This document shows positions 10,401-30,937 of a stretch of 64,000 nucleotides of DNA, in pieces (within the stretch, counting starts at the first letter, position 1; every line of letters begins with the position of its first letter). The notes under the pieces were generated by a model. That model searched no databases, was not told the origin of the DNA, and worked only from the letters and a program-made list of their open reading frames with translations. Source of the DNA: an uncultured Flavobacteriales bacterium (GTDB lineage: Bacteria; Bacteroidota; Bacteroidia; Flavobacteriales_D; Crocinitomicaceae); assembly GCA_913054135.1 (NCBI GenBank), contig CAJXJK010000007.1:1-64000 (forward strand), in the 5' to 3' direction. The position numbers were made by a program, and so were the translations under genes.

Positions 10401-10728
10401 AAAGGTTCATAGTCATGGCACCATCACATTCGATAGCTAATTGCCATACCTTGTCACCGTTGGGCAGGGTGGTCCAGTTTCCTGAGTTTTGAGGAGTGTA
10501 ATTAACGTCATACTTATAACCAAATCTCCAAGGAGTATCTTTGGCAGCATCATTAATTTCATCTTCTTCATTAATAGCGGCTTGATCATAACCGGGCATG
10601 ACCTCAAGAGGAATATCTTTTGTGTCCAGTTTGCCGTTCCAGCCTAAAGGGGAGCCTAAATTTGTGGTTTGAGCATATAGCCCAAACGACAGGCCAAGGC
10701 AGGCCAGTAGCGTGTAAATTTTCTTCAT
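7489..10728 (-). CDS. Secreted trypsin-like (lysyl-endopeptidase-type) serine protease with SprB repeats and T9SS type A domain
   Basis: 1079 residues, with a signal peptide MKKIYTLLACLGLSFGLYAQ. Residues ~200-440 form an S1-family protease close to lysyl endopeptidases. The catalytic triad is visible: His253 in LTANHCLG, Asp308 in ADHALLEID, Ser390 in GSSGSPLF. Next come a CARDB-like module (~465-565), a beta module with the CYDFIIDDSYGDG motif, and about four or five SprB-type repeats (APFTFDIG...GGIYTVTIIDN) to ~985. The last ~75 residues (IYPNPSNGVFNVQL ... GTYFVKLTSG ... KKIVNRK) are a type A T9SS sorting domain, cleaved by PorU and often replaced by A-LPS linkage. It probably degrades extracellular protein. 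The gene appears monocistronic, with terminators downstream on its own strand and before its start. Confidence 0.92.
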   Translation of the reverse strand: MKKIYTLLACLGLSFGLYAQTTNLGSPLGWNGKLDTKDIPLEVMPGYDQAAINEEDEINDAAKDTPWRFGYKYDVNYTPQNSGNWTTLPNGDKVWQLAIECDGAMTMNLLFEDYNLPKGAYLYLYDEQQTNRVGAYTNRNNRSDGELGTELVHGDKIIVEYVEPADVINQGTFTISNVIHGYRSLDPIQKDLAKALNQSGDCNIDVNCPLGNGWDDQIRSVAMIVVGGSGICTGALINNSCDDGTAYFLTANHCLGGGTGNWAFRFNWESPVGNESCATTANSVDPGPPYDQTANGATTLVSGTQADHALLEIDNMTVSDAQNWNCFFAGWDASDAETVTQATGIHHPSGDLKKICREDQSPYHTSAGGPAAQVWMIDDWDQGVTEPGSSGSPLFDQNGRIIGQLYGGAAACSGTNDNNQLDYYGRLGVSYPLGMTTYLSPSSCGTALTNDGWDPNTPSLPDDAAITAVVNPTGLLCSGTFTPEVTLKNEGTNDLTSVTINYDVDAGPNQVFNWTGTLAAGATENVTLSAQTVGSGSHTFNASTDLPNGNADSNPGNDASSGAFSTMSNGQSVTLEINMDCYGDEITWEIQDGGSNVMLSGGPYVNNAGGELISVTTCLDPGCYDFIIDDSYGDGLAGAQYNNCSIDGDYSITQDGTGATLATMIATDSDFGDQEINNFCVVSPCSGTASSTSVDLSCFGDTNGSLTVSMAGGDAPFTFDIGSGPQPTGTFNGLAGGIYTVTIIDNSACSNSIDVVINEPTELTMNSNLIDETCPGSMDGSIEIIAAGGTSPYGYSNDCATTFQPTGTFSGLAANTYDIFLQDDNGCQVGCNSVTIGTGTGVTATTSITDVSCNGDSDGSIQVNTTNGTAPFMYDIGSGDQGSDTFTALAPGPYTIDITDDNGCTGQVSGTVGEPAVLSTTENVTDEVMGNDGEINLTVSGGTAPYTYSWSGPNSFSSTDEDISGLESGNYTVTITDANGCTFQRADIFVDSQLGLLENGFTFTIYPNPSNGVFNVQLLNFEDAVQVQILDVTGRLVFDDQYEGQSLFSFDLTDKADGTYFVKLTSGDFETTKKIVNRK

Positions 10729-10822
10729 GTAAACGTTTTTTGAGACCTACAAAATACGAAAAATAACCCTATCTCATGATAATTGTTAAAATACAAACAG
10801 CCATTAATTGGAGTCCTATGAA

Positions 10823-10854
10823 CAAAAAAAAGCCCCGCTTTGTACAGCAGGGCT
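10823..10854 (-). terminator. Terminator of the PKD-repeat gene
   Basis: Read on the minus strand, AGCCC (10854-10850) pairs with GGGCT (10835-10831), with an inner AGC/GCT pair, followed by seven T. It lies just downstream of the stop codon of the PKD-repeat gene. Confidence 0.85.
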
Positions 10855-10860
10855 CAGTTT

Positions 10861-15370: not shown

Positions 15371-18300
15371 TTAAAACAAGATTCCCATGAAGAGAACGTC
15401 ATCAATTTGATCAAAATCGGCTTGCCAAAGTTCGAAGTTTGAAGCCACAGAATCAGAGTAATTTTCTTTTTTATGTTCTCTCAATCCTTCTATGATTTTC
15501 TTCGTTCCTGAAAGCTTAAGTTTACGACCATCTGGTCCACCAAACTGATCAGGATAACCATCAGAGAATAAGTACAGTGAATCACCAGGGTTCATCTGGA
15601 ATTTTTTAAGCGTGAATTCAACTTCATTTGATTCACCCCCACCAATTCCGCGTTTGTCACCACCAATGATATCGATTTCACCTTTTTGCTGAATGTAAGA
15701 ATGACGCTTGGCAGCACTCAATATCACTTCGTTGGTATTCGTGTTTATCTCACAAAGTGTTAAATCCATTCCGTCTCTTGATCTGAAAAAGTCAATTTCT
15801 TTAGTGTCACTCTCTTCTTGCTGATGAAGAATTTTTTGAATCTCATCATCTAATTTCTCTAATACTTTTTCAGGGGTTAACCACTCACCCGAAGTTTCCA
15901 TTAGTTTATAAAGGTTTCTCAAAGTTGTGGAACCAATCATACTCATAAATGCTCCAGGAACACCATGTCCTGTACAATCACAACATCCAACAATAATTTT
16001 GTCTTCGTATTCTCTTATGAAATAAAAGTCACCACTTACTACATCTCTAGGTTTGAAGAAGATAAATGAGTGAGGGTAGTATTTTGCGAGAGCGCCATCT
16101 TTAGGAAGTATTGCAGACTGGATTCTTTGAGCATAATTAATACTTGATGTTAAATCATTATTTATCTCTTCAATTTTATCAGCCTTTTCAACAACTTCTT
16201 TAGTTTTTATTTCAAGTTGATTTTCAAGATATGCTTGAGTTGCTTTGAATCTTCTTACTCTCAATCGAATAACGACCAGAACTATTCCGACCAGAGCTAA
16301 TAAAACTAGGAGGTAGAACCACCATGTTTTCCAAAATGGTTTAGCAATAGTTATTTTGATGCAATTCTTTATTGGAGAACAATCACCATCCTCATTACAT
16401 GCAATTAATTGAAGTTCATATTCACCGTCAGCAATTCTACCGTATGTAGCCGATTCTTCATATGACGGATTAGAGAATATGTGATCATAGCCTTCGAGCT
16501 TAAATTTATAGGTGACATCCTCAGGATTTTTGAAGCTTATGCCAATAAAGTCAAATTGGATTCTGTAGTTGTTATAAGGAAGCACAATCTCTTCGTCAAT
16601 GCTATAATTTTTTTCATTGATTATTACTTTCAGCAAATTGACTACAGGTGCGATTCTGTTCTTCTTATCCTTACTAGGGTCATATTTGATTCCGCCATTA
16701 TCTGAACCAATCCATAAATTAGATTGCTCGTCTAAGAACATAGCGTTTAAGTTAATTTGAGAATTTATGCCAGATTCATGATCAAAAGTTTCAACTTCTT
16801 CAGCATTAGAAGATAGTTTGGTAAGTCCACCTCTATGTCCTACCCACATAAATCCTCTGCTATCAGTGTGCAGAGCATAGCAAAAGTTCGATTTAAGGCC
16901 ATCATCAGTTGAAAAGTTAACAAATGATTTACCAATTTTTTTGTAGATCCCCGATTCTGCCGTGGCAAGCCAAATATCGCCTTTAAGATCTTTTGTGATT
17001 CCAATAACCTCTAGTTCACCTGTGTTTGTAATTTCGAATTCTTCTATTGATGAATTTCTTAGGGCGTACAAATACCTACTATGAGTTCCCATCCAAATTG
17101 TTCCTTCATCATCAGCCATCACAGTTTTTATTGCGTTATGTGCAAGGCCCATTTCGGTATCAAACAAATTGGTGGAATTATTAGCGATATTATAAACTAT
17201 TAGTCCGCCATCTGTAGCCACCCAAACCGAACCATTATTCACGGTTAGTTGATTTACCTTGTTTTGTAATGAGCCATAATCCCATTTGATTTTGTTTACT
17301 TTGTCAGTTCTCAAATCAATAGAATACATACCATCTCTATGAGTTCCCACCCACATAACTGAATCGCTTTGGTAAAGAGAGGTGATTATGTTATTAGATA
17401 GACCATTTTCATTATTGTAAAACTTCCATTGTTCTTCCATGGACGGCGAGATCCTGATTAATCCATTTTCGACTCCAAACCACTTTGTGTCATTATCAAT
17501 CCAAATTGCACTGACATCATTTCCATATTCATTTGGATCGTGACTATAAAAAGTGAAAAAATCATCAATTAATGTGGAAAGACCTGCACCAAAAGTTCCT
17601 ACCCAAATATTGCCTTCTCTGTCTTGATATACAGATTGAACGTAATTACTTGACAGGCCAGTATCCTCATTGTAAGCTGTTACTCTAAAGTCACTGTTTC
17701 CTGTTGAGTCAGTGTGAAGTTTGATTAATCCTTGCCCATAGGTTCCTAACCAAATATTGTTGTCTTTATCTTCAAGAATTGTTTGAATTTGATACACTGA
17801 TATGTCAATATCACTATCCCAAGATCTAAACTGAAGTTGCTCGTCTAATCTTGTCTTTACTAAATCACCATTTTTCATTCCAACTAGAAAGACACCTGGG
17901 TCATTGGAAGGAGAAATTGCAGAAATCCATTCGTCTTCAAAGTAAGATGCCGTAGATACCCATTTACCTTCAGGTTTTTGAATGAGGATTAGGCCTTCAT
18001 CCGTCCCAACCATAATGCTTGACTCATCTATGCATTGAATTGAGAAGAAATTCTCTTTTTCGAAAGATCCAATTTTCATTGGTACGTTATCATCAATCAT
18101 GAATAATCCTTCACTTTGACTAATGAAAAAGGTGCTTGAACCGTTTGAAGAGATACCATTAATTTTACCATCTACCAATCCTTTAGTTCTGATTGATGAG
18201 AAGTCTTCTCCATTAAAATTGGTAAGGCCACCTTCATTGTGTCCGAACCATTGCAATCCGTCACCATCCACGTGAGAACAGGTGATAATGTCTTCGGCTA

Positions 18301-18517
18301 AGCCATCTAATGTAGAAAAGCTGACAAAGTTTTTACCATCAAATTTTGCTAATCCTTCACCTGTCCCAACCCATAAATAACCTTGCGGGTCCTGGTTTAT
18401 AGAGTAAATGAAGTTTTGCGAAATTCCATCTTCTGTCGTGTATTGATTAAATCTATACTCTTGAGCGCTGGAGTAAACACTTGTAAATAAAAGAAGTAGG
18501 AGTATAAATTTGCTCAT
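15371..18517 (-). CDS. Membrane sensor: two-component-type propeller, Y_Y_Y domain and SpoIIE/PP2C phosphatase
   Basis: 1048 residues. Signal peptide MSKFILLLLLFTSVYSSAQ; then about fourteen Reg_prop blades (~20-620; motifs such as NIWVGTFGAGL and DSRGFMWVGHRGGLTKL) forming a periplasmic double propeller; a Y_Y_Y domain (~640-715); one membrane helix (FWKTWWFYLLVLLALVGIVL); a coiled coil; and a cytoplasmic SpoIIE-type PP2C phosphatase (~800-1048). Metal-binding motifs are intact: VVSGDFYF, CCDCTGHGVPGAFMS, LFSDGYPDQFGG and the terminal DDVLF. In Bacteroidota, Reg_prop sensors usually end in a histidine kinase or HTH; here the output is Ser/Thr dephosphorylation. The likely substrates are the SiaC-family proteins in the same cluster, by analogy with SiaA acting on SiaC in Pseudomonas aeruginosa. 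It is the last gene of the cluster. Confidence 0.92.
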   Translation of the reverse strand: MSKFILLLLLFTSVYSSAQEYRFNQYTTEDGISQNFIYSINQDPQGYLWVGTGEGLAKFDGKNFVSFSTLDGLAEDIITCSHVDGDGLQWFGHNEGGLTNFNGEDFSSIRTKGLVDGKINGISSNGSSTFFISQSEGLFMIDDNVPMKIGSFEKENFFSIQCIDESSIMVGTDEGLILIQKPEGKWVSTASYFEDEWISAISPSNDPGVFLVGMKNGDLVKTRLDEQLQFRSWDSDIDISVYQIQTILEDKDNNIWLGTYGQGLIKLHTDSTGNSDFRVTAYNEDTGLSSNYVQSVYQDREGNIWVGTFGAGLSTLIDDFFTFYSHDPNEYGNDVSAIWIDNDTKWFGVENGLIRISPSMEEQWKFYNNENGLSNNIITSLYQSDSVMWVGTHRDGMYSIDLRTDKVNKIKWDYGSLQNKVNQLTVNNGSVWVATDGGLIVYNIANNSTNLFDTEMGLAHNAIKTVMADDEGTIWMGTHSRYLYALRNSSIEEFEITNTGELEVIGITKDLKGDIWLATAESGIYKKIGKSFVNFSTDDGLKSNFCYALHTDSRGFMWVGHRGGLTKLSSNAEEVETFDHESGINSQINLNAMFLDEQSNLWIGSDNGGIKYDPSKDKKNRIAPVVNLLKVIINEKNYSIDEEIVLPYNNYRIQFDFIGISFKNPEDVTYKFKLEGYDHIFSNPSYEESATYGRIADGEYELQLIACNEDGDCSPIKNCIKITIAKPFWKTWWFYLLVLLALVGIVLVVIRLRVRRFKATQAYLENQLEIKTKEVVEKADKIEEINNDLTSSINYAQRIQSAILPKDGALAKYYPHSFIFFKPRDVVSGDFYFIREYEDKIIVGCCDCTGHGVPGAFMSMIGSTTLRNLYKLMETSGEWLTPEKVLEKLDDEIQKILHQQEESDTKEIDFFRSRDGMDLTLCEINTNTNEVILSAAKRHSYIQQKGEIDIIGGDKRGIGGGESNEVEFTLKKFQMNPGDSLYLFSDGYPDQFGGPDGRKLKLSGTKKIIEGLREHKKENYSDSVASNFELWQADFDQIDDVLFMGILF

Positions 18518-18683
18518 CAGTGTCTTTTAGGAAATGCCAGTCTCCTCGTTTTGGAGTTTTGGTACCGTGCCTATTTGAATTCTGCTCACAGGCTTGGTTT
18601 CTCCTTATTGATTCGTAATATAGAAACTTACGTTATTATTCACGGTAGGTTTCGTTTATTTTTATGAATCTTTTAAAGGTTTT

Positions 18684-19070
18684 CTAAGATTTTAATTCAA
18701 TAGGAGTCATGACTAAAACATCTCCTACTAATTTTCTGAAATCATTCCCAGTTTCTTCCATTTCGAAATCGTCCTGATCATATCTCCATTCTATTTGGAT
18801 TTTACGAGAATGTTGCAGAGTTTTCATTTCTCGCATCATATTGATTAAAACTTTTGAAGAAACCGTGTTGTAATATTCTAGTTCGATTGAAACTTTTAAA
18901 ATATCCGCTTTAGATTTATAAAACTCCTCTAACCAATTTTGAAAGGGCGAGAAAAACGAGCGTGCATCCTCAGGTAAACTCTTACCAATAATCGATAGTG
19001 TTCCTTTTTCAATGTCTCCTTTAATTTCAGGTGACTTTTCTGTTTCTGGTGCAAAAAATGAATTTTCCAT
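18684..19070 (-). CDS. SiaC-family (DUF1987) regulatory phosphoprotein, copy 1
   Basis: A 128-residue cytoplasmic protein of the DUF1987/SiaC family. Features seen: GTLSIIGKSLPEDARSFF near residue 30, the ELEYYNTVSSK segment with Thr69, and an acidic DQDDFEMEETGNDF near the end. In Pseudomonas aeruginosa, SiaC is phosphorylated on a threonine by SiaB and dephosphorylated by the PP2C phosphatase SiaA; the free form activates the diguanylate cyclase SiaD. Thr69 is the probable equivalent (inferred by motif). It lies 166 bases upstream of a SpoIIE phosphatase gene and 88 bases after a secreted-protein gene. No SiaB or GGDEF protein is visible in the window. Confidence 0.85.
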   Translation of the reverse strand: MENSFFAPETEKSPEIKGDIEKGTLSIIGKSLPEDARSFFSPFQNWLEEFYKSKADILKVSIELEYYNTVSSKVLINMMREMKTLQHSRKIQIEWRYDQDDFEMEETGNDFRKLVGDVLVMTPIELKS

Positions 19071-19158
19071 TTGGGTTAATATGACTTACCGCAAAATAGT
19101 TGAACACAAAGATTAACAAGGGTTTAAGCTTTGAGTCAAATAAAATTGTGAATTTCAA

Positions 19159-20115
19159 TTACTTTGGGGTTATTTTAATATTGGTTTTTGGTTTCGGCAC
19201 TCCTCCAATTGGTATGGTGAAGAAGGGTAAAGTTTCACCGTATTGATTGGTGATATAAAAGCTTACATTATTATTTTTTGCAGGATTCTTCTTGTTTTTA
19301 TGAAACTGAACATCAAATGTTGATTCTTTCTCTTTCTCAAAGATTTTATGTTCACTCTTCATCCATTTTCCTTGACCTGACTTTTTAAGAAAGATGGCAT
19401 ATCTTGAATTCGTTATTATTTTCAATTCTCCATCATTATCCCAATCAAAATTTCCTTGTTTAACTGAAATTGTTCTGTTATCAATATATGGGTATACATG
19501 TGAGATTTCCTTCGGGTCTTCATGCATTCTAAAAGTGTATTCGTAGGTGAACGCATTTCCTCCTTCAATCTCAATATTTTTTGTTGGTGAAGTACTTAAG
19601 AAATAGCGATATAAATTACCGTCATCACCACTTATTCCCTCTGCAATAATTTTGAATACATTTCCGCCAACTTTTTTCCAGTTTTCACCCGAAGTAGGGT
19701 TTAAGGGACCGAATGTATACCATTTGCCGTCGTAATCAGTACCAAATGTTTTAGAGTGCAAGAGGTTACCACTTTTGTATTTTCCAATTGGACTTGAAGA
19801 TCTAGCATCTTTTTCTGTAACACAACCTTTTCCACCATAAACAGAAAACTTTGTTTTCGTATTGTACTTACCTTTTTGTTCATCATGTTTCCCACTTGCG
19901 CCTGGATCATATACTCTGATATAAACAGGGTCTTTATGAGTGCTAGGGATTACAAAAAAGAAGGTTTGTGAGAAATCATCATCACCCCAAGATTTGCTTC
20001 CTTCTTTGCCGAAAGTACAAAGGAAAGGAATGTTCTCAATTTTTGCAGGAACCTGTTGTGCTTCTGCCTGGTAAGACAATAAGAAGAGTGCTGTAAATGC
20101 TATAATAATTTTCAT
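19159..20115 (-). CDS. Secreted hypothetical protein of the T9SS/SiaC cluster
   Basis: 318 residues with a signal peptide MKIIIAFTALFLLSYQAEAQ. I do not recognise a named domain. The mature part is beta-rich and opens with a TFFFVIPSTHKDPVYIRVYDPG segment that looks like a jelly-roll or C2-like strand pattern, then a glycine-rich middle (GKWYTFGPLNP) and a C-terminal region with YITNQYGETLPFFTI. There is no T9SS sorting domain, no lipobox and no membrane helix, so it is probably periplasmic. It sits 29 bases downstream of the PorE-like gene, in line with the adhesin and PorP genes, so an accessory role in export or assembly of that adhesin is a reasonable guess. Confidence 0.7.
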   Translation of the reverse strand: MKIIIAFTALFLLSYQAEAQQVPAKIENIPFLCTFGKEGSKSWGDDDFSQTFFFVIPSTHKDPVYIRVYDPGASGKHDEQKGKYNTKTKFSVYGGKGCVTEKDARSSSPIGKYKSGNLLHSKTFGTDYDGKWYTFGPLNPTSGENWKKVGGNVFKIIAEGISGDDGNLYRYFLSTSPTKNIEIEGGNAFTYEYTFRMHEDPKEISHVYPYIDNRTISVKQGNFDWDNDGELKIITNSRYAIFLKKSGQGKWMKSEHKIFEKEKESTFDVQFHKNKKNPAKNNNVSFYITNQYGETLPFFTIPIGGVPKPKTNIKITPK

Positions 20116-20144
20116 GATATCGTTTCTTTCAATAATTGAGCCAA

Positions 20145-22181
20145 CTATTTTAAAAGTGTGAACTCTACTCTTCTATTTTTTTGTTTCCCTGCTTCATTTT
20201 CATTCGAAGCTATTGGGTTTGCTTCTCCGAGTCCTCTTGATGTAATTCTTTTTACATCAATTCCAGCAGCTGCTAGGTAATCTTTTACTGCATTAGCCCT
20301 CTTCTTTGAAAGATTCAAGTTATACTCAGGAGCACCACTCGCATCAGTAAATGCTTCTATGAGCATATTTAAATCTTTATTTTGGAGTAAAATGTCTCTA
20401 ATTAGCTTCAAATCTTTCTCAAAAAGAGGCTTGATTTGCCAACTTCCTTCATCAAACTGAAGGTTTTCAAGAACAAATGCTTTGTCAATTTGGAAGTCAT
20501 CCAGTTCACTTTTTGTGAATGGTTTAACTTCAGCATTCTCAAAACCATCCTTTTTAAGTTCTTTCCATACTGGGTGGGCCTGTTCTATATTTTTAAATTC
20601 ACCCACTAAATACATATAGCTTTTTTCTTCTTCAATGTATTTGATTCTCACATTACCATATTTCTCAAGTCCCACCCTAAATGCCTTATCATTTATTATT
20701 GAGTCAGATTTCAGAGCTTCAATAGAGTAGAGGTAGGTAGAATCATTATCACCATTAGGAGTTGAGGCAATGTTGTGTTCTGTTGGATTTAGCCTTTCTA
20801 AACTTGACGAGGCTTTTTCAGTACAATTTATTTGCTTCGTAACACAGTATTTTGTGCCGTCATCTTTTGAAATAATACCTAAAGTGATTGAATGAGGACC
20901 TTCAGTACTGATTTTGTGTTCAGCAGTTATTCCTTTTAGATGTGTTCCATCATCAAATGTCCAGTAATAACCTTCAGCATTTAGATTTGAGATGTTTGTT
21001 CGCTCTGCGGATACCAAAAACTTTTCATTTGGTGCAACTGCATTTGCAGAAGAAATATAAGCTTGCTCAGTTTCTTCTAAACTAAGGTGGAAATAGTTTT
21101 GTTCAAAGTAAACTTGATCTACAATGGTGTCAATTACATTTAAATAAATGTCATATTCTCCAAAACCAGGAAAGCAATAGTCAACTGAGATACCTCTCTT
21201 TTTGACACCTTGAATGTCCCATTCATAGATTAGCCCAGGAGTGTCATCAAAGCTCATGGCGTTTTCTTCTTCAAGTAAATAGCAAAAACTCACCTCGGTC
21301 AATTCAGTACAGTTATCAAATGTTGGAAAGAGAGAATTCAATTTATAGATTTCATCCATTCCTCCACGATCAGATGAAAGAAAAGCTGTGCCCAGATTGT
21401 CTGTTGAAGTAAGGTGAAAATCATTTGCATCACTATTAATTGGAGCAGGTAAAAGAACCGCTTCATTACCTTCAGAATGCTTATAGACATCTAGATCTGG
21501 CTTCGAACCTCTGTTTGATGAAAAATAGATGTTTCCTCCAATGACCGTAGGGAAAACTTCTCCCTTATCAGTGTTCACTTCAGCACCGAGGTTTGTTGGT
21601 TTAGTCCATTCCCCATTTGTGAATGAAGATTTGTAGATGTCAAAAGATCCGAATCCCCCCGGCATATCAGATGCAAAATAGAGTGTTTTTCCGTCTTCAC
21701 TTAATGCAGGATGGGTGATATTATATGAAGTGTCATTGTAAGTGAATTCATTCAATAATTGCCATTTCCCGTTTTTTTTGTTCGAAAAATAGATGCCTAA
21801 TTTAGTATTGGCTTTCTCCAGCTTGCTCCCGTTCAAATATTGCAATTGATTCTTAGAGACTGCTGCAAATTGATTTTTGGACCCAAATGCAATAGGTCCA
21901 TCATGAAGTGCTGAACTAAATCTTTGGTCAAATACTGATGTAGCATTAAAGTCAGTGGTATCTAAAATGTAAAGTTCATTTGTATTTCTGTTTGAAGCGT
22001 CTAAATAAGTAATCTTCATGTTACTCTTTTGATCACTACAAACGATAATCTTATCTTCAAATTGAACAGGGGCGTATACGTTACCTTTTAGCCCAGTTTT
22101 CACCTTTGTAATTTCATACTCTTGACCAAAACTGATTAAAGAAATGGTAAGAACTAATATGGTGAGTACAGCTTTTACCAT
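20145..22181 (-). CDS. PorE-like PD40/OmpA protein of the second T9SS cassette
   Basis: 678 residues with a signal peptide MVKAVLTILVLTISLISFGQ. A PD40-type propeller (~30-290; SEDGKTLYFASDMPGGFGSFDIY and GNIYFSSNRGSKPDLDVY) is followed by PKD/Ig-like beta modules (~310-455), a SPOR-like alpha/beta segment (~495-560; YMYLVGEFKNIEQAHPVWKE), and a C-terminal OmpA domain (~570-678; EAFTDASGAPEYNLNLSKKRA). It differs from the copy at 4478-6733 in lacking the N-terminal TPR part and in the added PKD and SPOR-like modules. Its start overlaps the PorP stop by 7 bases, so the two are translationally coupled. It probably anchors the PorP-dependent export complex to peptidoglycan. Confidence 0.85.
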   Translation of the reverse strand: MVKAVLTILVLTISLISFGQEYEITKVKTGLKGNVYAPVQFEDKIIVCSDQKSNMKITYLDASNRNTNELYILDTTDFNATSVFDQRFSSALHDGPIAFGSKNQFAAVSKNQLQYLNGSKLEKANTKLGIYFSNKKNGKWQLLNEFTYNDTSYNITHPALSEDGKTLYFASDMPGGFGSFDIYKSSFTNGEWTKPTNLGAEVNTDKGEVFPTVIGGNIYFSSNRGSKPDLDVYKHSEGNEAVLLPAPINSDANDFHLTSTDNLGTAFLSSDRGGMDEIYKLNSLFPTFDNCTELTEVSFCYLLEEENAMSFDDTPGLIYEWDIQGVKKRGISVDYCFPGFGEYDIYLNVIDTIVDQVYFEQNYFHLSLEETEQAYISSANAVAPNEKFLVSAERTNISNLNAEGYYWTFDDGTHLKGITAEHKISTEGPHSITLGIISKDDGTKYCVTKQINCTEKASSSLERLNPTEHNIASTPNGDNDSTYLYSIEALKSDSIINDKAFRVGLEKYGNVRIKYIEEEKSYMYLVGEFKNIEQAHPVWKELKKDGFENAEVKPFTKSELDDFQIDKAFVLENLQFDEGSWQIKPLFEKDLKLIRDILLQNKDLNMLIEAFTDASGAPEYNLNLSKKRANAVKDYLAAAGIDVKRITSRGLGEANPIASNENEAGKQKNRRVEFTLLK

Positions 22182-23089
22182 TGCAAGAATCTAGGGTTTT
22201 GTGCTTTCGTTTTATAAAGGAAATTGTACTTGATGCCAAGTTCATGAGATCCTGAAGAATAGCTTAACAAATCACCTAATGGTATCCCTAATGAATACAT
22301 AAAGCTTAATTGCTGATTCGCATTGATCTTAAATAATGCAATAATAGATTCTGAAGTTCTATAAGAAACTCCTGCTTCAAAAAATCGGTTAAATTCTGCC
22401 ATCAAATTCAGGTCAATTTGAGGAGTTGTACCCATGTTATATTTTAATAGAAATGAAGGCTTTAACTTGATTTTTGATCCCGCATCAATTTTTAAACCAC
22501 CGCCAAGATGAAAATTATAATCAAGTGGACTATGAGACATAGTGAGTCTACCGTCTTCAATTTGACTGTTAAACATAAATGGAATTGAAAGACTTACGAA
22601 ATATTTCTTTGAGCCGTAATACACTCCAAAGCTTGAGTTGGGAAGTATTGAAAGTGGTGTGTCTGTTGAGAATTGCTCATCACCGGTATCATATGTTTGA
22701 AGTTCTGAGTGGTAAGATCTTACAAGGTTAAGTCCTGCGGCCACACCAAAGCTCAGCTGTGATGATTTCATCTTGATTCTATAGGCGTACGTTCCATAAA
22801 AGCCTGTATTTCTGTCTACTCCAATTTGATCTGCGAACAATTGAAACCCTACAGCTGAGGATTCATTTTTAAGTGGCGAATGAGCTGATAAACTCTGGGT
22901 AAGAGGTGCGCCTGGGAATCCTATCCACTGCGCTCTAAAAGATCCTGAAATTGACCAAGCTTCTTCACTTCCTGTAAGAGCTGGATTCAAAGGAACGCCG
23001 TTAAACATGTATTGTGTTCTGATCGGAGATACTTGCCCAAAAGCTGTCACTATTGACACAAAAGATAATATGGATAAGATTAATTTCAT
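22175..23089 (-). CDS. PorP/SprF family T9SS outer-membrane protein, second copy
   Basis: 304 residues with a signal peptide ending TAFGQ. It carries the family signature: RTQYMFNGVPLNPALTGSEE, FRAQWIGFPGAPLTQS, and VGFQLFADQIGVDRNTGFYG. The start codon overlaps the stop of the upstream adhesin gene in an ATGA, and its own stop overlaps the PorE-like gene, so all three are translationally coupled. PorP/SprF proteins partner with type B cargo for T9SS export. Compared with the copy at 3523 the pattern is conserved but the sequence is well diverged, which suggests an old duplication with specialised cargo. Confidence 0.9.
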   Translation of the reverse strand: MKLILSILSFVSIVTAFGQVSPIRTQYMFNGVPLNPALTGSEEAWSISGSFRAQWIGFPGAPLTQSLSAHSPLKNESSAVGFQLFADQIGVDRNTGFYGTYAYRIKMKSSQLSFGVAAGLNLVRSYHSELQTYDTGDEQFSTDTPLSILPNSSFGVYYGSKKYFVSLSIPFMFNSQIEDGRLTMSHSPLDYNFHLGGGLKIDAGSKIKLKPSFLLKYNMGTTPQIDLNLMAEFNRFFEAGVSYRTSESIIALFKINANQQLSFMYSLGIPLGDLLSYSSGSHELGIKYNFLYKTKAQNPRFLQW

Positions 23090-26000
23090 TTTTTAATTAC
23101 CAAGTATCCTTTATAAGTTAGCGTGTCATCTACAATTAAAATGTAGTAATAGGTGTCATTCATTAATGTTTCTCCTGAAGAATCTGTTCCTTTCCAATCA
23201 TTTTGGTAATTCTCTGTTTGGAATACAGATTGACCCCAACGATTCATAATGTTTAATGAATTCGGCAATTCTTCAACCCCATCAATAATAAAAGTGTCGT
23301 TTTTGTCATCATCATTTGGAGATATGGCTGCAGGAATGAAAATTGAATTCACAGTAACAATGACGTCATCTTTGACTGTTGGACAAGAGCCGTTATAAAC
23401 TGTCCAGGTAAATACGTTGGTGCCTTCCATTAATCCGTTTACTGAAGTAGCTGGATTGCCCATTTCAACAATGTTTGCTCCCTCAAGAGTTGTCCAGTTT
23501 CCAGCCCCGACATTTGTTTCGACAGCATTTAGGTTTGTGAAAAATCTGTAATTCAATACAATATCGTCTCCTGCATCAGCTGTTGGTTGCTCATAAAATG
23601 TAATGTATAATGTGTCCTCGTTTTGGCAGCTTCCTTCTTGCTCATGCCATACAAATTCGTGCAACCCATAATCGGCAACAGTGATGTCGGCATTATATAA
23701 ACTTGAATCATTTGTTGTAAAATCTAGGTCTGAATACCAATATCCAGATACTCCTGAATCATAAGCAAACATTTGAATGTCAAGTCCACAAGCGACCGTG
23801 TCAATACCAGCATCTGGGGTAGGGATTCCAATAACGGTTATTGGATGGGTTAGACTTTCATCACAGGCTGGAGTTCCTACTGTGTAAGTGATATCTGTAG
23901 ATCCAGCACCCACAACGGTTGGGTCAAAATTGTTTCCAGTCATTCCGTTTCCACTCCAAACTCCAGGTGAAGAACCGGTCACAAGTAATGAGAAGTCAAC
24001 AATTCCATCCGCAATACAAATCGGCGTTGGCATTGTCCAAGAAGAATCTAAATCAGGAAGAACATGAACTATTTGAGTAGATGTGTCATGACATTGTCCG
24101 TATCCAGTAATGTAGTCAATTGTGTAGTCTCCACTTAATCCAGATAAATCAATGATTGAACCTGCGTTAATGGATGTTCCTTCCCAGAAACCACCAACTG
24201 ATGTCGTGCCTGATATGAAAAGATTGTTTAAATCAAAAGTTCCAATGTTCTCACAAAGTGTATCCAATAATTGAGTTGTTGGATTTAATTCTTCAACCAA
24301 AGTGATTTGGAGGGTTAAACTATCTTCACAAGTTCCGTTATCTACTACATGAGTCACATTGTATGTTCCGCCTGCTGTAGTTGAATAATCTAAGATCTCA
24401 TTCATAGAACCAGAATGAGTGGCAGAGCCAGATCCTCCGTAGCTATAAAAAGAGCTTGTTTCGCCAAGTATTGTTTGAACCGAGTCACTTAGGTCAATGA
24501 AAGTATCGGGTAGGCAAACAGTGTCTGGAATCCAGAAAATGTCATTGATAGGTGGAAGTATTTCTATTGAGAATGAAGATGTCGTAGCACACAAATTCGG
24601 AGTTAGGTAATCAATTGTGTAGTTGCCAGGTGTAGTTGTATTTAAACTGATTTCTCCAGTTGTAGTATTCACGATTTGTAGGTTGGTCGTTACTTCCGAG
24701 AAAGTTCCGCCGGCAGTTGCTACGTTATTGGGAAGAACGTTTGCTCCGGGGGTGCAATAAGAAAGGTTATAGTCGAAAGTAGCATCCTGTAGGGGTTCAA
24801 TAACAAAGTCAACTGAGTCAGTCACTGGGCAAAGGCCATTTGTTGTGTAGTACACTTTGTAAACTCCTGGCGTACTTCCGGATATATCTACTTCTCCAGT
24901 AAGGGGTACAATAGAAATTAATCCGCTATTTGCACTCCAACTTCCTCCTGGTGATGTGACTGAAGTTGGGAGTTGATTTGAAGCTGTTTCACAATAGTTA
25001 GTTGTAGAATAATTGAATGAAGCGTCATCAGCATTATTGATTGTTACGTCAAAAGTTTCAATGCAAGGGAAAACCGAATAAGAGATTGTGTAAACGCCTG
25101 AGGTAGAGGTTTGAAGATTGATTTCACCAGTAGAGCTGTTAATGACTACACCTAGCGGAGAGGCGGTAAATACGCCTCCAAGGTCACCTGTTATTGTTGG
25201 GACAGGGTCAGGGTCAATAACCAAACAATAAGTTGCTGCCCCATAACTGAAAGCTGCGTCACATGACGCTACTTGGGCACCAACAGAGTAAAATGCTGGA
25301 TCATTTATTGAATTGAAAGTTGTAGCCAACCAATCAGCATCTCTTGCAATGTTTGAAATTCTAATTTCGTCTTCATAACCATCCAGCTCTGCAGTTGCAG
25401 CTAATTCATGATCTTCTCCGACTCTCAGAAATGAAAGTGTTCCTCCGGTAGGATCATTCACATAAGAAATCGGACCTTCAATTAGGGCTCCGTCTTGATA
25501 AAAGAATAATTCGTTTGCAGTTGCGTCTCGGGTCACAGTTAGCATGGAGAATCCAGCCGCCATAGAAATTGTATTCGTAGTAACCGTCGATTCGACTGCA
25601 GGAACAGCTCCATATTCCCAATCCATTTGCATTCTGCCGTCGTTAAGTATGTTGAAGTAGTATAGGAAATTCCTGTTCTCAGTAGAAGCAGAGCCTCCCA
25701 TTCCTAAAATTGTATTGTTTCGAGAACCAGCACTGTATGACTGAAAGTCAACCCAAGCAGATATTGTCAAGTCTCCAGTTATATGAAGGTCTGGGTCAAT
25801 TAATGAGGATAAATTGTCATTCGCAGAAGTGAAGTCTCTACATTTTGCAGCCGCGCCGACAGTGTTGTCAACTGTACCTGCATTTGTCAGGTCGGCATTA
25901 CTTGAGGTTCCATCTAAAAAGTTACCGGTTAAATGATAAACCCCTTTGTAATTAGCATCCCATGTTAGGTCAGAAGATTGATCTGCGAGAATGGTGGCAT

Positions 26001-26376
26001 TTCCATAATTCATCCAGATTTCGGTGTCTACTGTTGTGCTAAGAGTTGGGATCTTAACCCAGGCCGTGAATGCGCCAGTCAATGGGTTATACGACTCCAA
26101 TTGATGTTCAAGTTCTGTCAAGCCATCATTAAGACTAAACTTAATGTCCCACCCATTTGCACTTTCCATTTCACCACCAAAAGATGAATACGCCATTTGG
26201 GCGTCCGTCTCACTAATCATGATAGGAAAATCAACATGGTCACCAAGACCCTGAACCAATGAACTATTAATTGTTACCGGTTTATAGTAGATGTAGCCAG
26301 CTAACTGGGCACAAGAATTGTGGCCAATAAAAAGGCTGAAAACGAAGAGGGCTAATATTTTGACTAAAGGTTTCAA
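23086..26376 (-). CDS. DUF2341/LamG surface adhesin with T9SS type B sorting domain
   Basis: 1096 residues. It starts at TTG 26376, one base after the stop of the upstream SiaC gene; no in-frame ATG lies upstream and the signal peptide (MKPLVKILALFVFSLFIGHN) fits. Residues ~30-125 match DUF2341 (VDFPIMISETDA ... ELEHQLESYN ... WVKIPTLST) and ~145-350 a LamG/concanavalin-like domain (GDLTISAWVDFQ). Then come several ~85-residue Ig-like repeats (GGSWSANSGLISI, TPGVYKVYYTTNGLCPVTDS), and a terminal CHU_C domain (AISPNDDDKNDTFII, IMNRWGQSVFQTENYQNDWKG). DUF2341+LamG pairs are typical of carbohydrate-binding surface proteins. It is exported by T9SS, probably with the coupled PorP gene. Ligand unknown. 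Confidence 0.88.
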   Translation of the reverse strand: MKPLVKILALFVFSLFIGHNSCAQLAGYIYYKPVTINSSLVQGLGDHVDFPIMISETDAQMAYSSFGGEMESANGWDIKFSLNDGLTELEHQLESYNPLTGAFTAWVKIPTLSTTVDTEIWMNYGNATILADQSSDLTWDANYKGVYHLTGNFLDGTSSNADLTNAGTVDNTVGAAAKCRDFTSANDNLSSLIDPDLHITGDLTISAWVDFQSYSAGSRNNTILGMGGSASTENRNFLYYFNILNDGRMQMDWEYGAVPAVESTVTTNTISMAAGFSMLTVTRDATANELFFYQDGALIEGPISYVNDPTGGTLSFLRVGEDHELAATAELDGYEDEIRISNIARDADWLATTFNSINDPAFYSVGAQVASCDAAFSYGAATYCLVIDPDPVPTITGDLGGVFTASPLGVVINSSTGEINLQTSTSGVYTISYSVFPCIETFDVTINNADDASFNYSTTNYCETASNQLPTSVTSPGGSWSANSGLISIVPLTGEVDISGSTPGVYKVYYTTNGLCPVTDSVDFVIEPLQDATFDYNLSYCTPGANVLPNNVATAGGTFSEVTTNLQIVNTTTGEISLNTTTPGNYTIDYLTPNLCATTSSFSIEILPPINDIFWIPDTVCLPDTFIDLSDSVQTILGETSSFYSYGGSGSATHSGSMNEILDYSTTAGGTYNVTHVVDNGTCEDSLTLQITLVEELNPTTQLLDTLCENIGTFDLNNLFISGTTSVGGFWEGTSINAGSIIDLSGLSGDYTIDYITGYGQCHDTSTQIVHVLPDLDSSWTMPTPICIADGIVDFSLLVTGSSPGVWSGNGMTGNNFDPTVVGAGSTDITYTVGTPACDESLTHPITVIGIPTPDAGIDTVACGLDIQMFAYDSGVSGYWYSDLDFTTNDSSLYNADITVADYGLHEFVWHEQEGSCQNEDTLYITFYEQPTADAGDDIVLNYRFFTNLNAVETNVGAGNWTTLEGANIVEMGNPATSVNGLMEGTNVFTWTVYNGSCPTVKDDVIVTVNSIFIPAAISPNDDDKNDTFIIDGVEELPNSLNIMNRWGQSVFQTENYQNDWKGTDSSGETLMNDTYYYILIVDDTLTYKGYLVIKK

Positions 26377-26377
26377 G

Positions 26378-26755
26378 CTAAGATTTGATGGCTTTCATGG
26401 TGATCATATCACCGATTAAATTTTTAAAATCTTGTCCTGTTTCTTCCATTTCAAGATCATCTTCGTCATATATCCAGTCTACACTTACTGGTTTAATTTC
26501 TTTTACTTGTTCCAATCTCAATAATAGATTGATGAGCAATTTAGAAGTTGCCGTATTGTAATATTCTAATTGAATGGTAACCTTAATCTCATTGGCTGGC
26601 GATTCATAAAATCGACTCAACCATTCTCTAAAAGGCATGTAAAATGCCTTTGCGTCCTCAGGAAGACTTCTTCCTTTCATGCTTAAGATTCCTTCCGAAA
26701 TACTTCCTTCAATTGTTGGGGTTTTGAAGGTTTCACCTACTTTATAATTATTCAT
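26378..26755 (-). CDS. SiaC-family (DUF1987) regulatory phosphoprotein, copy 2
   Basis: 125 residues. Same family signature as the copy at 18684: GILSMKGRSLPEDAKAFY, LEYYNTATSKLLIN with Thr68 at the expected phosphosite, and DEDDLEMEETGQDF. It is the closest relative of copy 1 in the window. Its stop codon is one base from the start of the adhesin gene and its start is 13 bases from the next SiaC gene, so it is firmly inside the operon. Likely a cytoplasmic switch protein dephosphorylated by the cluster's SpoIIE phosphatase (inference). Confidence 0.87.
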   Translation of the reverse strand: MNNYKVGETFKTPTIEGSISEGILSMKGRSLPEDAKAFYMPFREWLSRFYESPANEIKVTIQLEYYNTATSKLLINLLLRLEQVKEIKPVSVDWIYDEDDLEMEETGQDFKNLIGDMITMKAIKS

Positions 26756-26768
26756 TTAACTAGAAAGT

Positions 26769-27176
26769 TTACAGTCTTTCGACTTCATGGAGGTTAATCT
26801 TACATTTCATGATTTCATCATAATACTCACCGATTTCTTTCATCTCTAAATCGTCTGATTCGTAAAACCAATCTATTTCAACTTCAGTTTTCATACCAAT
26901 CATGTCATCAAGCATTCTTAGCATCCTTGTGATGACAACTGCAGAACTACTGTTCATATACATCAGGGCGAATTTTACATTTGTCTTTGCAGCTGGATTT
27001 GCTGTGTATTCAGCCATCCATCTGTTAAACTTGTAATAAAACTCTCTTGTATTCTCAGGTATTGAGGAACCTCTCAACTCGATTTCACCATTCGGCTTAT
27101 CTAGTTTGATGTAAGGAGTTTTTGAAGTTTTTTCAAAAATTAATACATCCTGATGTTGATACTCTGTAGTCTCCAT
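26769..27176 (-). CDS. Diverged SiaC-family (DUF1987) protein with Ser at the phosphosite
   Basis: 135 residues from ATG 27176 (a TTG at 27182 would add two). The family pattern is present but diverged: NGEIELRGSSIPENTREFYY, ALMYMNSSSAVVI, and ESDDLEMKEIGEYY. The segment that reads YYNT in the other two copies reads YMNS here, so Ser76 replaces the presumed phospho-Thr. It is the first gene of the siaC-siaC-adhesin-PorP-PorE order. It might respond to a different kinase or act as a constitutive partner. Confidence 0.82.
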   Translation of the reverse strand: METTEYQHQDVLIFEKTSKTPYIKLDKPNGEIELRGSSIPENTREFYYKFNRWMAEYTANPAAKTNVKFALMYMNSSSAVVITRMLRMLDDMIGMKTEVEIDWFYESDDLEMKEIGEYYDEIMKCKINLHEVERL

Positions 27177-27207
27177 TTTCAATTTTTCCCTAATTTTTTA
27201 GTTTTAG

Positions 27208-27349: not shown

Positions 27350-27384
27350 AGCTGATTTTCAGTTGTTTTGAAAATGAAACAGCT
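27350..27384 (-). other. Long imperfect hairpin at the end of the receiver operon
   Basis: AGCTG (27350-27354) pairs with CAGCT (27380-27384), and TTTTCA with TGAAAA inside. It overlaps the stop codon of the receiver gene. There is no T-run after it on the minus strand, so it is not a classical terminator; it may stabilise the 3' end or pause transcription. Confidence 0.35.
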
Positions 27385-27814
27385 AGACAAAAGAAAGGTA
27401 TTCTTTTGAAAATTTAGACCAAAACTTCTTCAATTTGCCTTCATTTTGATCTTCAAAATCTTGGATGAAGCCTTCGGCGTTCTGCATCAATAAAACGTCC
27501 TTTCTGAAATATTTGCTTGCCCCAGCAAGATCCGCTTTTTGCAGTACTTCAGGATTGTTTTGTCCACTAACAACTACTATATCACAAGATGGCAGATTTT
27601 CTTTAAAAAGAGGCAGGGCATCCACGCCATTTAATCCTCCTAAAATGTGGTCAAGAAAGATGATTTCGGGTTTCACTTTAAGCAATTGGCCTAATGCACT
27701 CTCGCAATTGGAAAAAACATGTATGTTAAATGTGCCAACTTTTTCAAGTCGCTTTTTGAAAGTCACTGCAAAAAACTCGTCATCTTCTACAATGAATATA
27801 TTTTTAACGTCCAT
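27383..27814 (-). CDS. Single-domain response regulator (receiver)
   Basis: 143 residues, a CheY-like receiver with no output domain. Acidic residues Asp11/Asp12 (VEDDEF), phosphoacceptor Asp55 (IIFLDHILGG), Ser83 (VVVSGQN) and Lys105 (YFRKD) are all in place, so it should be phosphorylated. A short basic/aromatic C-terminal tail (FWSKFSKEYLSFV) follows. The gene overlaps the upstream pseudo-receiver gene by 11 bases and is the third gene of a kinase operon. It is probably a phosphotransfer target of the hybrid kinase at 28259, and it sits just before the SiaC/T9SS cluster. Confidence 0.88.
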   Translation of the reverse strand: MDVKNIFIVEDDEFFAVTFKKRLEKVGTFNIHVFSNCESALGQLLKVKPEIIFLDHILGGLNGVDALPLFKENLPSCDIVVVSGQNNPEVLQKADLAGASKYFRKDVLLMQNAEGFIQDFEDQNEGKLKKFWSKFSKEYLSFV

Positions 27815-28226
27815 AATTTAATTTTTTAGTAGAGTAAAGAACATTGAGTGATCTCTCAAAATTGCGTTCGAAAAGCACATCCTCCTTGACGAATTTTGTG
27901 GTTGCTTTAACCACTAAATCATCCATGTGGATTGGAGCAAATCGTTCGTAAGTGTGAACGATTGTAGCTGAGTTAAATTTACTTTTAAGTAGTCGTAAAT
28001 AATGCAATTCTTCTTGGTCATGAAAAGCTGACTCATTTGAAATTACTAGGGTTCTTTCTGGGATTGATATTTTCATTAGGTCCATTACATTAGCATAACT
28101 TTTGAGTACCCAATCTTGATCTGTCAGTGAAAAGAAGTTTTTTAGGATAAGTTTTGTTCTTGCCAATTTCTCCTCATTTCTTCCTACAACTACTACGTGT
28201 TGCCTTTTTTCATCCCTTCTGTTCAT
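27804..28226 (-). CDS. Degenerate receiver-like protein
   Basis: 140 residues with a receiver-like alternation of strands and helices: HVVVVGRNEEKLARTKLIL, TLVISNESAF, SATIVHTYE, TTKFVKEDVLF. Aligned by eye with the next gene, the acidic pair after strand 1 is absent (GRN) and the phosphoacceptor Asp is Ser (VISNE), while the KxFVKED lysine region is retained. It is therefore likely a pseudo-receiver that cannot take phosphate in the usual way. It is coupled to the canonical receiver (11-base overlap) and lies 32 bases after the hybrid kinase. It may act by binding a partner. The receiver assignment is my inference. Confidence 0.65.
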   Translation of the reverse strand: MNRRDEKRQHVVVVGRNEEKLARTKLILKNFFSLTDQDWVLKSYANVMDLMKISIPERTLVISNESAFHDQEELHYLRLLKSKFNSATIVHTYERFAPIHMDDLVVKATTKFVKEDVLFERNFERSLNVLYSTKKLNYGR

Positions 28227-28258
28227 GAGACAAAAGTAGTCCTCACTGTCACTTTAAT

Positions 28259-30937
28259 TCAATCAAAATCGATAAGTGGCTTTGAATTCCCGATAGACTG
28301 CGAGTTAAAGTTCGCTTGTTTGTCCTTTATATGCTGTATAGTGCCTTCTACTTCAATTATAAACTCATTGATTTCAGCTAGAGTTGCTGTTCCGTTTTCA
28401 ATTTTTTCTGCCTTTTGGTTGAGTTCTATAAATTCGAAAGTGATGAAAGAAGGTTTCATTTTATGTGCTGATTTTCTAATGATTTCTGAAGAGAGCAAGT
28501 CTTTTTCATTTTTCATTAAAATCAATTCTTGGCCAGTACTTTTCAAATAGATATCAAATAAAGTATTAACGAAATCGGCATCACCATCAGATAAATTGAT
28601 CAATGTTGGCATTTCGAGACTATTCCATTTTGAGGAAATAGATTTTTCATTTTTAGAAGAGGTGACCTGATGAAAAACCCTTCTTAGGTCATTGGTTTTA
28701 AATGGTTTAGAAATGAATCCGTTCATTCCTAGTTCGGCACATTTGAGTCTCTCTTCGTCAAGAACGTGTGCCGACATGGCGAAAATTGGCACATCAGAAA
28801 CTTCTCTGATTTTGGAGGTTGCGGTGTATCCATCCATGACAGGCATTTGGAGGTCCATTAAGATTATGTCTGGCCTGAATGATTCAAACATATCAAGGCC
28901 TTCTTGACCGTTTTTTGCAGAGCAAAAGTTGATACCTAAACCTTCCATCACTCTTTCATTTAGCAAGATGTTTACTTCATGGTCTTCACAAATCATAACT
29001 TTTAGCGAACTCAAATCAAGAGATTCTAAATTCACTGTTGCTGCTAATTCGGTTGATTGACTAATCTCAAGTGGGATGTCAATAGTGAAAGTGGAGCCTT
29101 TATGAATTGTAGATTCAACAGTTACACTTCCCCCCATTAAGTCACAAAGGTTTTTAACGATTGAAAGCCCTAAGCCCGTGCCTTGGTGTTTTCTTTGAAA
29201 ACTAGAATCAACTTGCGTGAAGTTATCAAAGATAATTGCGGCATTCTTTTTAGAAATACCCATGCCTGTATCATTTATTTCAAATGTACATGTGATGAAG
29301 TTATCACTTACGTTAGTGAAGGAGGTGGTTATAGTCACTCCCCCTTTGTTAGTAAACTTAATTGCGTTACTTACTATGTTATTTAGAACCTGACCGATCT
29401 TTACTTGATCACCGATAACAATTTTAGGTAATTCTGATGGGATGTTAATTTCTAAGCTGAGATTCTTGTCTTCTGCTTCTTGAGAGTATAAGGAATCTAC
29501 CTTATGAAGTAATTCGGCTAAATCAAAATTCTGTTTATTCACAGACATCTTGCCGGCTTCAATTTTAGTTAGATCTAGAATGTCATTGATAATGGACATC
29601 AGGTCTTCACCTGACTTTTGAATGATATTTATCCATTTAGATTGATCTTCATTTAGCTCACTTTGTTCTAGTATGTCTGTAAATCCAATAAGAGCGTTCA
29701 GTGGGGTTCTGATTTCATGACTCATGTTGGCTAAGAACTGAGATTTAAATTCAGCACTTTTTTCTGCTAGTTGTTTGGCTTCCTTAAGTTTTCTTTCAGT
29801 CTCTTTTCGTTGTGAAATGTCTTGGTAGAATATTAGGTTAGAAGGGGTGCCATTGAATTCAATCTCTGCAACAGAAATTTGAACCGGAATTGACTGCTTG
29901 TCGGATGTGTAAACAAAAGAGTCAAGCACGTCAATTTTTCCTTTCAAATAGAGGGCGTAATTTTTTTGAGAAGCTTCAAGGTGATCAGGCGGAATAGTGT
30001 CAAAAATACTCATCCCAATCATTTTTCCAGATTGATATTTATGAAGCTTTGAACAGGCTTCATTCAAATCGATAATCATGTTGTCAACTTTAGATTCTAC
30101 TAAGATTGGCACATCACTGTTCTCGAAAATTGATCTGAAGTTTTGTTCATTCTCCCGAATCTGTCTTTCTTGATGAATCCTTTCAGTGACTTCTCTAACA
30201 AAGAAAGTTGCCCCATTGATTTTGTCATTCGAAAGGATGGGTGTACACGAACATTCCAAGACAAAAGATCGATCTTCAACTTTATATTCATCAATTGATC
30301 TTGAGTTTTCTCCTTTTAAAGCTTTGTTATATAGCGTAAGCCATTTGTTCCTAAATTTTTCATCTAGACGTTTAAAGAAAGGTTCTCCTATTTTTAGAGG
30401 TGATAGGACATGTTGCTTTAAGTTGTTTTTAGCGACCTGGTTAATGATTAGCAAGTTTCCTTTAGCATCTACTGACCATATTCCATCACTTGTGTTGTCC
30501 AAGAAAGCTCTGGTGTTCGCATAGTTTTCATCCAGTCTTTTCTCTAGATCGTCTCTTAACTTATCCTCTTTTTTTCTTCTTTCTACATTCGTGATTTGTT
30601 TTTCTATTTCCCCAACACTTAAAAAGTCTTTAGCTATGAAATCAAATGCACCAAGTTTTAAACTTTCAACTGCATGTTTTACTTCAACTTTAGAGCTAAG
30701 AATAATCACCGGACTATCTTCAATGTTCAGGTTGTTTCTGATGAATTCGAGGGCAGTTCCGTCCGGCAGATTGAAATCACAAAAAATGATATCAAAATGT
30801 TGGTGAGAAATTATCTTAGAGGCTTCTGACAAAGATCTAACAGAAGTCAATGTTGAAGGTATTGAGCTTTTACTCAAGTGTCTTTTAAAAATTAAAAGAT
30901 CAGCTTCATCATTTTCAACATGTAAAACTCTTGTCAT
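28259..30937 (-). CDS. Hybrid histidine kinase (REC-PAS-PAS-HisKA-HATPase-REC-Hpt)
   Basis: 892 residues, no membrane segment, so a cytoplasmic kinase. Order: N-terminal receiver (1-120, Asp54 in IFCDFNLPDG), two PAS domains (~135-255 and ~262-380), HisKA with His407 in NMSHEIRTPLNALIGF, HATPase_c with N-box NIVSNAIKFTN and GTGLGLSIV, second receiver (~645-755, Asp695 in ILMDLQMPVMDG), and a C-terminal Hpt with His825 (KSAHKMKPSF). All phosphorelay residues are intact. The input receiver at the N-terminus suggests that it is itself controlled by another phosphodonor. It heads an operon with two small receiver proteins, which are the obvious Hpt targets. It is divergent from no gene; a tRNA lies upstream. 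Confidence 0.93.
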   Translation of the reverse strand: MTRVLHVENDEADLLIFKRHLSKSSIPSTLTSVRSLSEASKIISHQHFDIIFCDFNLPDGTALEFIRNNLNIEDSPVIILSSKVEVKHAVESLKLGAFDFIAKDFLSVGEIEKQITNVERRKKEDKLRDDLEKRLDENYANTRAFLDNTSDGIWSVDAKGNLLIINQVAKNNLKQHVLSPLKIGEPFFKRLDEKFRNKWLTLYNKALKGENSRSIDEYKVEDRSFVLECSCTPILSNDKINGATFFVREVTERIHQERQIRENEQNFRSIFENSDVPILVESKVDNMIIDLNEACSKLHKYQSGKMIGMSIFDTIPPDHLEASQKNYALYLKGKIDVLDSFVYTSDKQSIPVQISVAEIEFNGTPSNLIFYQDISQRKETERKLKEAKQLAEKSAEFKSQFLANMSHEIRTPLNALIGFTDILEQSELNEDQSKWINIIQKSGEDLMSIINDILDLTKIEAGKMSVNKQNFDLAELLHKVDSLYSQEAEDKNLSLEINIPSELPKIVIGDQVKIGQVLNNIVSNAIKFTNKGGVTITTSFTNVSDNFITCTFEINDTGMGISKKNAAIIFDNFTQVDSSFQRKHQGTGLGLSIVKNLCDLMGGSVTVESTIHKGSTFTIDIPLEISQSTELAATVNLESLDLSSLKVMICEDHEVNILLNERVMEGLGINFCSAKNGQEGLDMFESFRPDIILMDLQMPVMDGYTATSKIREVSDVPIFAMSAHVLDEERLKCAELGMNGFISKPFKTNDLRRVFHQVTSSKNEKSISSKWNSLEMPTLINLSDGDADFVNTLFDIYLKSTGQELILMKNEKDLLSSEIIRKSAHKMKPSFITFEFIELNQKAEKIENGTATLAEINEFIIEVEGTIQHIKDKQANFNSQSIGNSKPLIDFD

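Follow-up and report, generated by a model that had tools for sequence, protein, structure and literature searches.

A candidate trans-envelope sensor operon that joins a type IX secretion adhesin cassette to a propeller-SpoIIE phosphatase in an uncultured Flavobacteriales bacterium

SiaC is a protein switch known from biofilm control in Pseudomonas. Here we describe a locus of an uncultured Flavobacteriales bacterium (Crocinitomicaceae) where three SiaC-family genes share a strand with an adhesin-export cassette of the type IX secretion system (T9SS), a gene for an exported protein and a gene for a sensor-phosphatase. The locus lies in a stretch of 64,000 nucleotides (assembly GCA_913054135.1, contig CAJXJK010000007.1, positions 1 to 64,000), hereafter the window. 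The deeply conserved unit in it consists of a type B adhesin, a PorP protein, a PorE-like protein, the exported protein, for which we coin the name secP, and a periplasmic-propeller/SpoIIE phosphatase.

The SiaABCD system of Pseudomonas aeruginosa offers a first comparison. There, SiaA dephosphorylates SiaC at Thr68, and the output of SiaC controls aggregation (PMC7647112). The window has in common with it a membrane phosphatase with a SiaA-like PP2C domain, a Thr or Ser in SiaC at the Thr68 site and SiaB in the genome. It differs in its HTCS-type propeller sensor (HTCS, hybrid two-component system), in having SiaB in trans, in carrying three SiaC copies with T9SS genes between them, and in lacking a co-encoded diguanylate cyclase: no GGDEF domain (SiaD) was found by Pfam among the eight genes of the cluster and three genes upstream, the 11 genes that this search covered.

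On the envelope side, the adhesin, PorP and PorE have been proposed to form a wall-anchored complex (PMC12618676). Adhesins with a type B C-terminal domain (CTD) are encoded in operons with PorP/SprF and PorE in Porphyromonas gingivalis (the PG1035-PorP-PorE proteins) and in the set Fjoh_3952-3950. The window shares with both the adhesin, the shuttle and an OmpA-domain PorE-like protein, and with Fjoh_3952-3950 also the gene order; its cassette continues into secP and a sensor-phosphatase, a continuation that the descriptions consulted do not mention.

A third comparison is with the HTCS sensors of Bacteroides, whose periplasmic Reg_prop propeller, Y_Y_Y domain and single transmembrane segment recur in the window phosphatase. 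The HisKA, receiver and helix-turn-helix output of these sensors is absent from the window protein, and a PP2C (SpoIIE) phosphatase stands in its place; moreover, HTCS sensors partner sugar-utilisation genes, whereas the window phosphatase partners T9SS genes. The propeller also bears a distant likeness to PorZ of the T9SS, at 67.6 bits far under the family cut-off of 260, and PorZ, unlike the window protein, has no transmembrane phosphatase. In the open-access literature, to which the search was limited (subscription papers and preprints lay outside it), no paper joins SpoIIE with type IX secretion, and none joins SpoIIE, propeller and Bacteroidetes.

Gene order around secP

With secP as the anchor, a scan of GTDB contigs gave 508 secP-encoding stretches, and the best 80 loci, which fall in the Flavobacteriales and Bacteroidales, were read. 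The genes of the relatives were called mechanically, as the longest open reading frames (ORFs), their domains were labelled with profiles built from the window proteins and their relatives, and loci from one genus do not count as independent. Of 106 distinct loci, 101 continue from secP into a propeller gene on the same strand, and 83 have a PorE-like gene directly upstream of secP. Carriers of the cassette include the cultivable strains Breznakibacter xylanolyticus DSM 6779 and Labilibacter sediminis CG51 (L164 and L177). The full adhesin-PorP-PorE-secP order was found in 56/106 loci, both in the window's order and in the Bacteroidales. In an even draw of Bacteroidales genomes, the propeller gene follows secP in all 25 loci that were fetched. 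The junctions are operon-like, with gaps of 30 bases or less in 56/57 cases for adhesin-PorP, 59/61 for PorP-PorE and 91/101 for secP-propeller. This conserved order of cassette and phosphatase goes far beyond chance, and with it the proposal of an earlier note on this DNA, that phosphatase and T9SS cassette belong together, is borne out across two orders.

The best conserved member of the cassette is secP itself, with a median identity to the window copy of 56%, against 31-34% for PorP, PorE and the phosphatase; the adhesin shares only its C-terminal ~300 residues between cassettes. The gene is carried by 47 of 299 genomes of the window's order and by 25 of 178 Bacteroidales genomes in the even draw, and full-length matches are scarce in a random draw from the phylum (2/296). 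No model of NCBIfam matches secP, nor does any Pfam model reach its cut-off, and a profile search of PDB sequences gave nothing significant. Its AlphaFold model is confident (mean per-residue score, pLDDT, 89.5; predicted template-modelling score, pTM, 0.86) and folds into two beta-sandwich domains, at residues ~19-178 and 190-292. Viral capsid proteins, SIDT1/2, insecticidal and clostridial proteins and carbohydrate-binding modules came up as fold matches and were rejected: with Z below 8 and Foldseek template-modelling scores of ~0.2, they reflect a common beta-sandwich arrangement, from which a function cannot be read. Elsewhere in the window's genome (L070, C12:46000-65900) there is a second PorE-secP-phosphatase set, with no adhesin, PorP or SiaC gene beside it.

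The locus and its proteins

The features of the locus are as follows.

15371..18517, minus strand: sensor-phosphatase; signal peptide, HTCS-type periplasmic propeller and Y_Y_Y (predicted), one transmembrane segment at ~728-757, coiled coil, SiaA-like SpoIIE/PP2C domain
18551..18655, minus strand: decayed 3' copy of secP, recognised by identity to secP, with an internal stop
18684..19070, minus strand: SiaC3, 128 aa; PF09345; Thr69 at the position of P. aeruginosa SiaC Thr68
19159..20115, minus strand: secP, 318 aa, exported, two beta-sandwich domains; no curated family
20145..22181, minus strand: PorE-like protein; PD40 repeats, PKD, OmpA peptidoglycan-binding domain
22175..23089, minus strand: PorP/SprF-family outer-membrane shuttle; PF11751 and TIGR03519 above cut-off
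23086..26376, minus strand: adhesin-like protein with type B CTD (CHU_C/TIGR04131) and DUF2341; TTG start
26378..26755, minus strand: SiaC2, 125 aa; PF09345; Thr68 at the P. aeruginosa phosphosite
26769..27176, minus strand: SiaC1; PF09345; Ser replaces Thr at the phosphosite; in-frame TTG start at 27182
27383..27814, minus strand: single-domain response regulator (Response_reg); conserved next to the SiaC pair in the genus (synteny)
27804..28226, minus strand: small protein between kinase and regulator; ORF with no Pfam match
28259..30937, minus strand: hybrid histidine kinase with receiver, PAS, HisKA, HATPase_c and receiver (Pfam; synteny)

The eight minus-strand genes from SiaC1 to the phosphatase stand in the order that the earlier note had given, their families agree with Pfam and NCBIfam, and the gaps or overlaps that it listed (13, 1, -4 and -7 bases, and the gaps of 88 and 166 bases) match the ORF coordinates. 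The unit reaches further upstream: before the SiaC pair, 27383-30937 encodes two small proteins and the hybrid histidine kinase, which together with the receiver gene accompanies SiaC1-SiaC2 in two congeners (G100 and G167). Scans for promoters and terminators gave nothing above the level of shuffled sequence, and the sole match in an Rfam scan was a tRNA.

Membership in the T9SS families is clear for two of the proteins. The shuttle scores 234 bits to PF11751 and 226 bits to TIGR03519, both above the curated cut-offs, and the adhesin has a T9SS type B sorting domain (CHU_C, 77 bits; TIGR04131, 44.3 bits against a cut-off of 35). With 152 bits to the PorE model NF052230, whose cut-off is 600, the PorE-like protein resembles PorE in layout and is not its orthologue. 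Likewise, SiaC1-3 score 107, 108 and 112 bits to PF09345 (cut-off 24.5) and 68-76 bits to the SiaC equivalog NF038265 (cut-off 150), which places them in the family of Pseudomonas SiaC, though not as its orthologues.

In the phosphatase, Pfam recognises Reg_prop in seven stretches, followed by Y_Y_Y and SpoIIE. Its signal peptide and a single transmembrane segment at ~728-757 place the propeller in the periplasm and the PP2C domain in the cytoplasm, so that the sensor, which had been taken for an external domain, is instead periplasmic. Its catalytic part belongs to SpoIIE/PP2C (PF07228, 54 bits) and keeps the conserved metal-binding Asp residues: among 104 propeller-SpoIIE proteins, D830, D847 and GHG850-852 are kept in all 104 and D986, D1039 and D1040 in 97%. 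The single strong PDB match of this part is SiaA-PP2C (6k4e, E 4e-30). To the SiaA equivalog NF038263 the protein scores 150 bits, over the C-terminal part only, far short of the whole-protein cut-off of 700, and SiaA-likeness was rejected as proof of specificity for SiaC, with other SpoIIE proteins scoring equally high or higher. In some Bacteroidetes (L122 and L142), the phosphatase gene linked to secP has a second propeller-SpoIIE gene on its right, the two standing tail to tail.

The sensor part matches the periplasmic domains of HTCS proteins (PDB 4a2l and 3v9f, E 3e-46). This likeness leaves room for glycan sensing, in which case the propeller, like HTCS sensors, would have a sugar or polymer as its ligand, possibly presented by secP, and adhesin, PorP and PorE would form a co-regulated surface function that is neither input nor direct target. 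The HTCS-type sensor (4a2l), the existence of secP-propeller pairs without an adhesin and the two beta-sandwich domains of secP, whose fold also occurs in carbohydrate-binding modules and in many other proteins, are all consistent with this account. We consider it improbable nonetheless, since the gene directly upstream of secP in 83/106 loci is PorE-like and not a sugar-utilisation partner, and Z-scores below 8 make the fold match of secP uninformative.

The best-scoring PorP/SprF match of the genome, one of 30, lies at the far end of the window (3574-4401, plus strand). Beside the cassette, at 7489-15162 on the minus strand, two large exported proteins are encoded, one protease-like (1079 aa) and one built of repeated PKD-like units (1433 aa); both end in C-terminal sorting-like regions.

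SiaC genes and the exchange of outputs

A phosphorylatable residue occupies the Thr68 position in all three SiaC proteins, namely Thr in SiaC2 (68) and SiaC3 (69) and Ser in SiaC1. In the tree, the nearest kin of SiaC3 is SiaC2. SiaC3 is inserted between secP and the propeller gene, which in the window therefore stands one place later than usual, and the 166-base gap between SiaC3 and the phosphatase holds the decayed 3' end of a secP copy, with 63% identity over 35 residues, an internal stop and 78% DNA identity over 76 bases to intact secP. As this remnant sits at the site where secP normally ends, it is the trace of a past duplication, which probably brought SiaC3 in.

The placement of SiaC varies from one cassette to another. 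It is found immediately upstream of the adhesin in the window and in five other loci (L105, L063, L074, L086 and L158), upstream of PorE in L088 and L184, and after the phosphatase in L079; L184, from the Bacteroidales, reads SiaC x3-PorE-secP-phosphatase, with one of the three SiaC frames short. The approximately unbiased (AU) test rejects a single clade of the adhesin-adjacent SiaC of family f3 with SiaC2/SiaC3 of the window (p 0.002) and does not reject one with SiaC1 (p 0.39), from which SiaC is an accessory that was recruited beside the adhesin at least twice. In the window's genus, SiaC genes and the hybrid kinase would have joined the cassette operon. The SiaC bracket, which the earlier note had treated as a defining trait, is thus not one: SiaC is absent from most cassettes and was recruited more than once.

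Are the SiaC genes and the phosphatase then beside the T9SS cassette by chance? The own genome has 14 matches to SiaC, 30 to PorP and 50 to SpoIIE, as well as four SiaB ORFs, and with such numbers SiaC-PorP closeness alone means little. Two of its 11 SiaC loci lie within 12 kb of PorP, where ~1.8 would be expected, a figure for which the lengths of several contigs were approximated. Proximity of these two was accordingly rejected as support on its own. Chance is nevertheless a most implausible explanation. It is already contradicted for the phosphatase by a gene order kept across two orders, and two congeners carry nearly the window's gene set in permuted form (secP-phosphatase-kinase-regulator-SiaC-SiaC-adhesin-PorP-PorE), which stays together through the rearrangement. 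Finally, one genome (G103, L069) has a contiguous PorE-secP-phosphatase-SiaB-SiaC-hybrid kinase run, with successive gaps from secP onward of -4, 2, -4 and 13 bases.

At the level of whole genomes, SiaC is present in 69/70 and SiaB in 53/54 cassette genomes. Among the Bacteroidales, SiaC occurs in 25/25 genomes with secP against 53/153 without it (Fisher 8.5e-11), and in the window's order in 46/47 against 200/252 (p 6e-4), in both cases with kinship ignored. The window contains no SiaB, as the earlier note had remarked, though the four SiaB ORFs lie elsewhere in the genome, and SiaB is part of the G103 operon. From that contiguous run and the near-universal SiaC and SiaB of cassette genomes, the link of the phosphatase and its cassette to the SiaABC switch is probably functional. 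The own genome also has two SiaB-SiaC operons with a convergent SpoIIE gene and a double-domain SiaB (C17:110147-112094, L013; C1:117110-119052, L016), apparently complete SiaABC sets.

The only cassette genome found to lack SiaC, and likewise SiaB (G006), carries after secP a propeller with a histidine kinase ATPase domain in place of SpoIIE (L073). Propellers with a kinase output come after secP in three further loci (L076, L089 and L204), and in L204 the adhesin-PorP-PorE-secP cassette is complete. The envelope side, made of adhesin, anchor, secP and propeller, is therefore constant, and the cytoplasmic output is exchanged.

Direction of the signal

These observations suggest that the cassette is more like an input than a target, with both directions possible. 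We propose a trans-envelope sensor operon with the adhesin cassette as input and SiaC as output, a reading for which we hold the case to be evenly balanced. In this model the T9SS would export the type B adhesin together with its PorP shuttle, the OmpA-domain PorE-like protein would fix the adhesin to the cell wall, and secP would couple the state of this complex to the propeller that the inner-membrane phosphatase exposes in the periplasm. In turn, the propeller would control how active the SiaA-like PP2C domain is in the cytoplasm. This domain would remove phosphate from the SiaC proteins at the Thr/Ser that corresponds to P. aeruginosa Thr68, SiaB kinases from other parts of the genome would counteract it, and unphosphorylated SiaC would act on a partner. 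Four elements of this scheme are inferred: that secP touches PorE and the propeller, the signal itself, the role of SiaC as substrate, and a flow from outside to inside.

The opposite, inside-out direction was in essence that of the earlier note: the propeller would sense an environmental cue, the phosphatase would set SiaC phosphorylation, and SiaC would control the export, assembly or activity of the adhesin. Two separate lineages of SiaC do include genes that lie next to that of the adhesin and on its strand, and in P. aeruginosa the output of SiaC controls aggregation (PMC7647112). However, SiaC resides in the cytoplasm, whereas adhesin, PorP, PorE and secP are located past the inner membrane; SiaC is missing from the surroundings of most cassettes, and the same adhesin cassette can have a histidine kinase output domain. 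We regard SiaC control of the adhesin as unlikely and favour the outside-in direction, because the adhesin-to-propeller side is constant and the cytoplasmic output, SpoIIE or histidine kinase, varies.

Several observations count against this sensor model. The own genome has 50 SpoIIE proteins, and SiaA-likeness is generic, other SpoIIE proteins scoring 102-210 bits to the SiaA model, so that it does not point to a specific substrate. Most cassettes lack a nearby SiaC, which is common in the window's order anyway (246/299 genomes), and the co-occurrence tests take no account of phylogeny. Some secP-propeller pairs have neither PorE nor adhesin beside them, so that the adhesin is not always the local partner.

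More broadly, we tentatively consider a widespread outside-in sensor, in which a T9SS adhesin acts through PorP/PorE and secP on a propeller with an exchangeable output, as a possible means of sensing surface contact or adhesin assembly. Its proposed outputs are a SiaA-like phosphatase acting on SiaC or a histidine kinase. The operon, which many Bacteroidota carry, unites the export cassette of an adhesin with a sensor-phosphatase and a new family of exported proteins, and gives SiaC switches a likely upstream signal. Its carriers may thus sense what their adhesin does and pass this to SiaC. Two questions become testable in a single locus, namely by what means bacteria with a T9SS are informed of the condition of their surface adhesins and which cues lie behind the many SiaC and SpoIIE proteins of the Bacteroidota.

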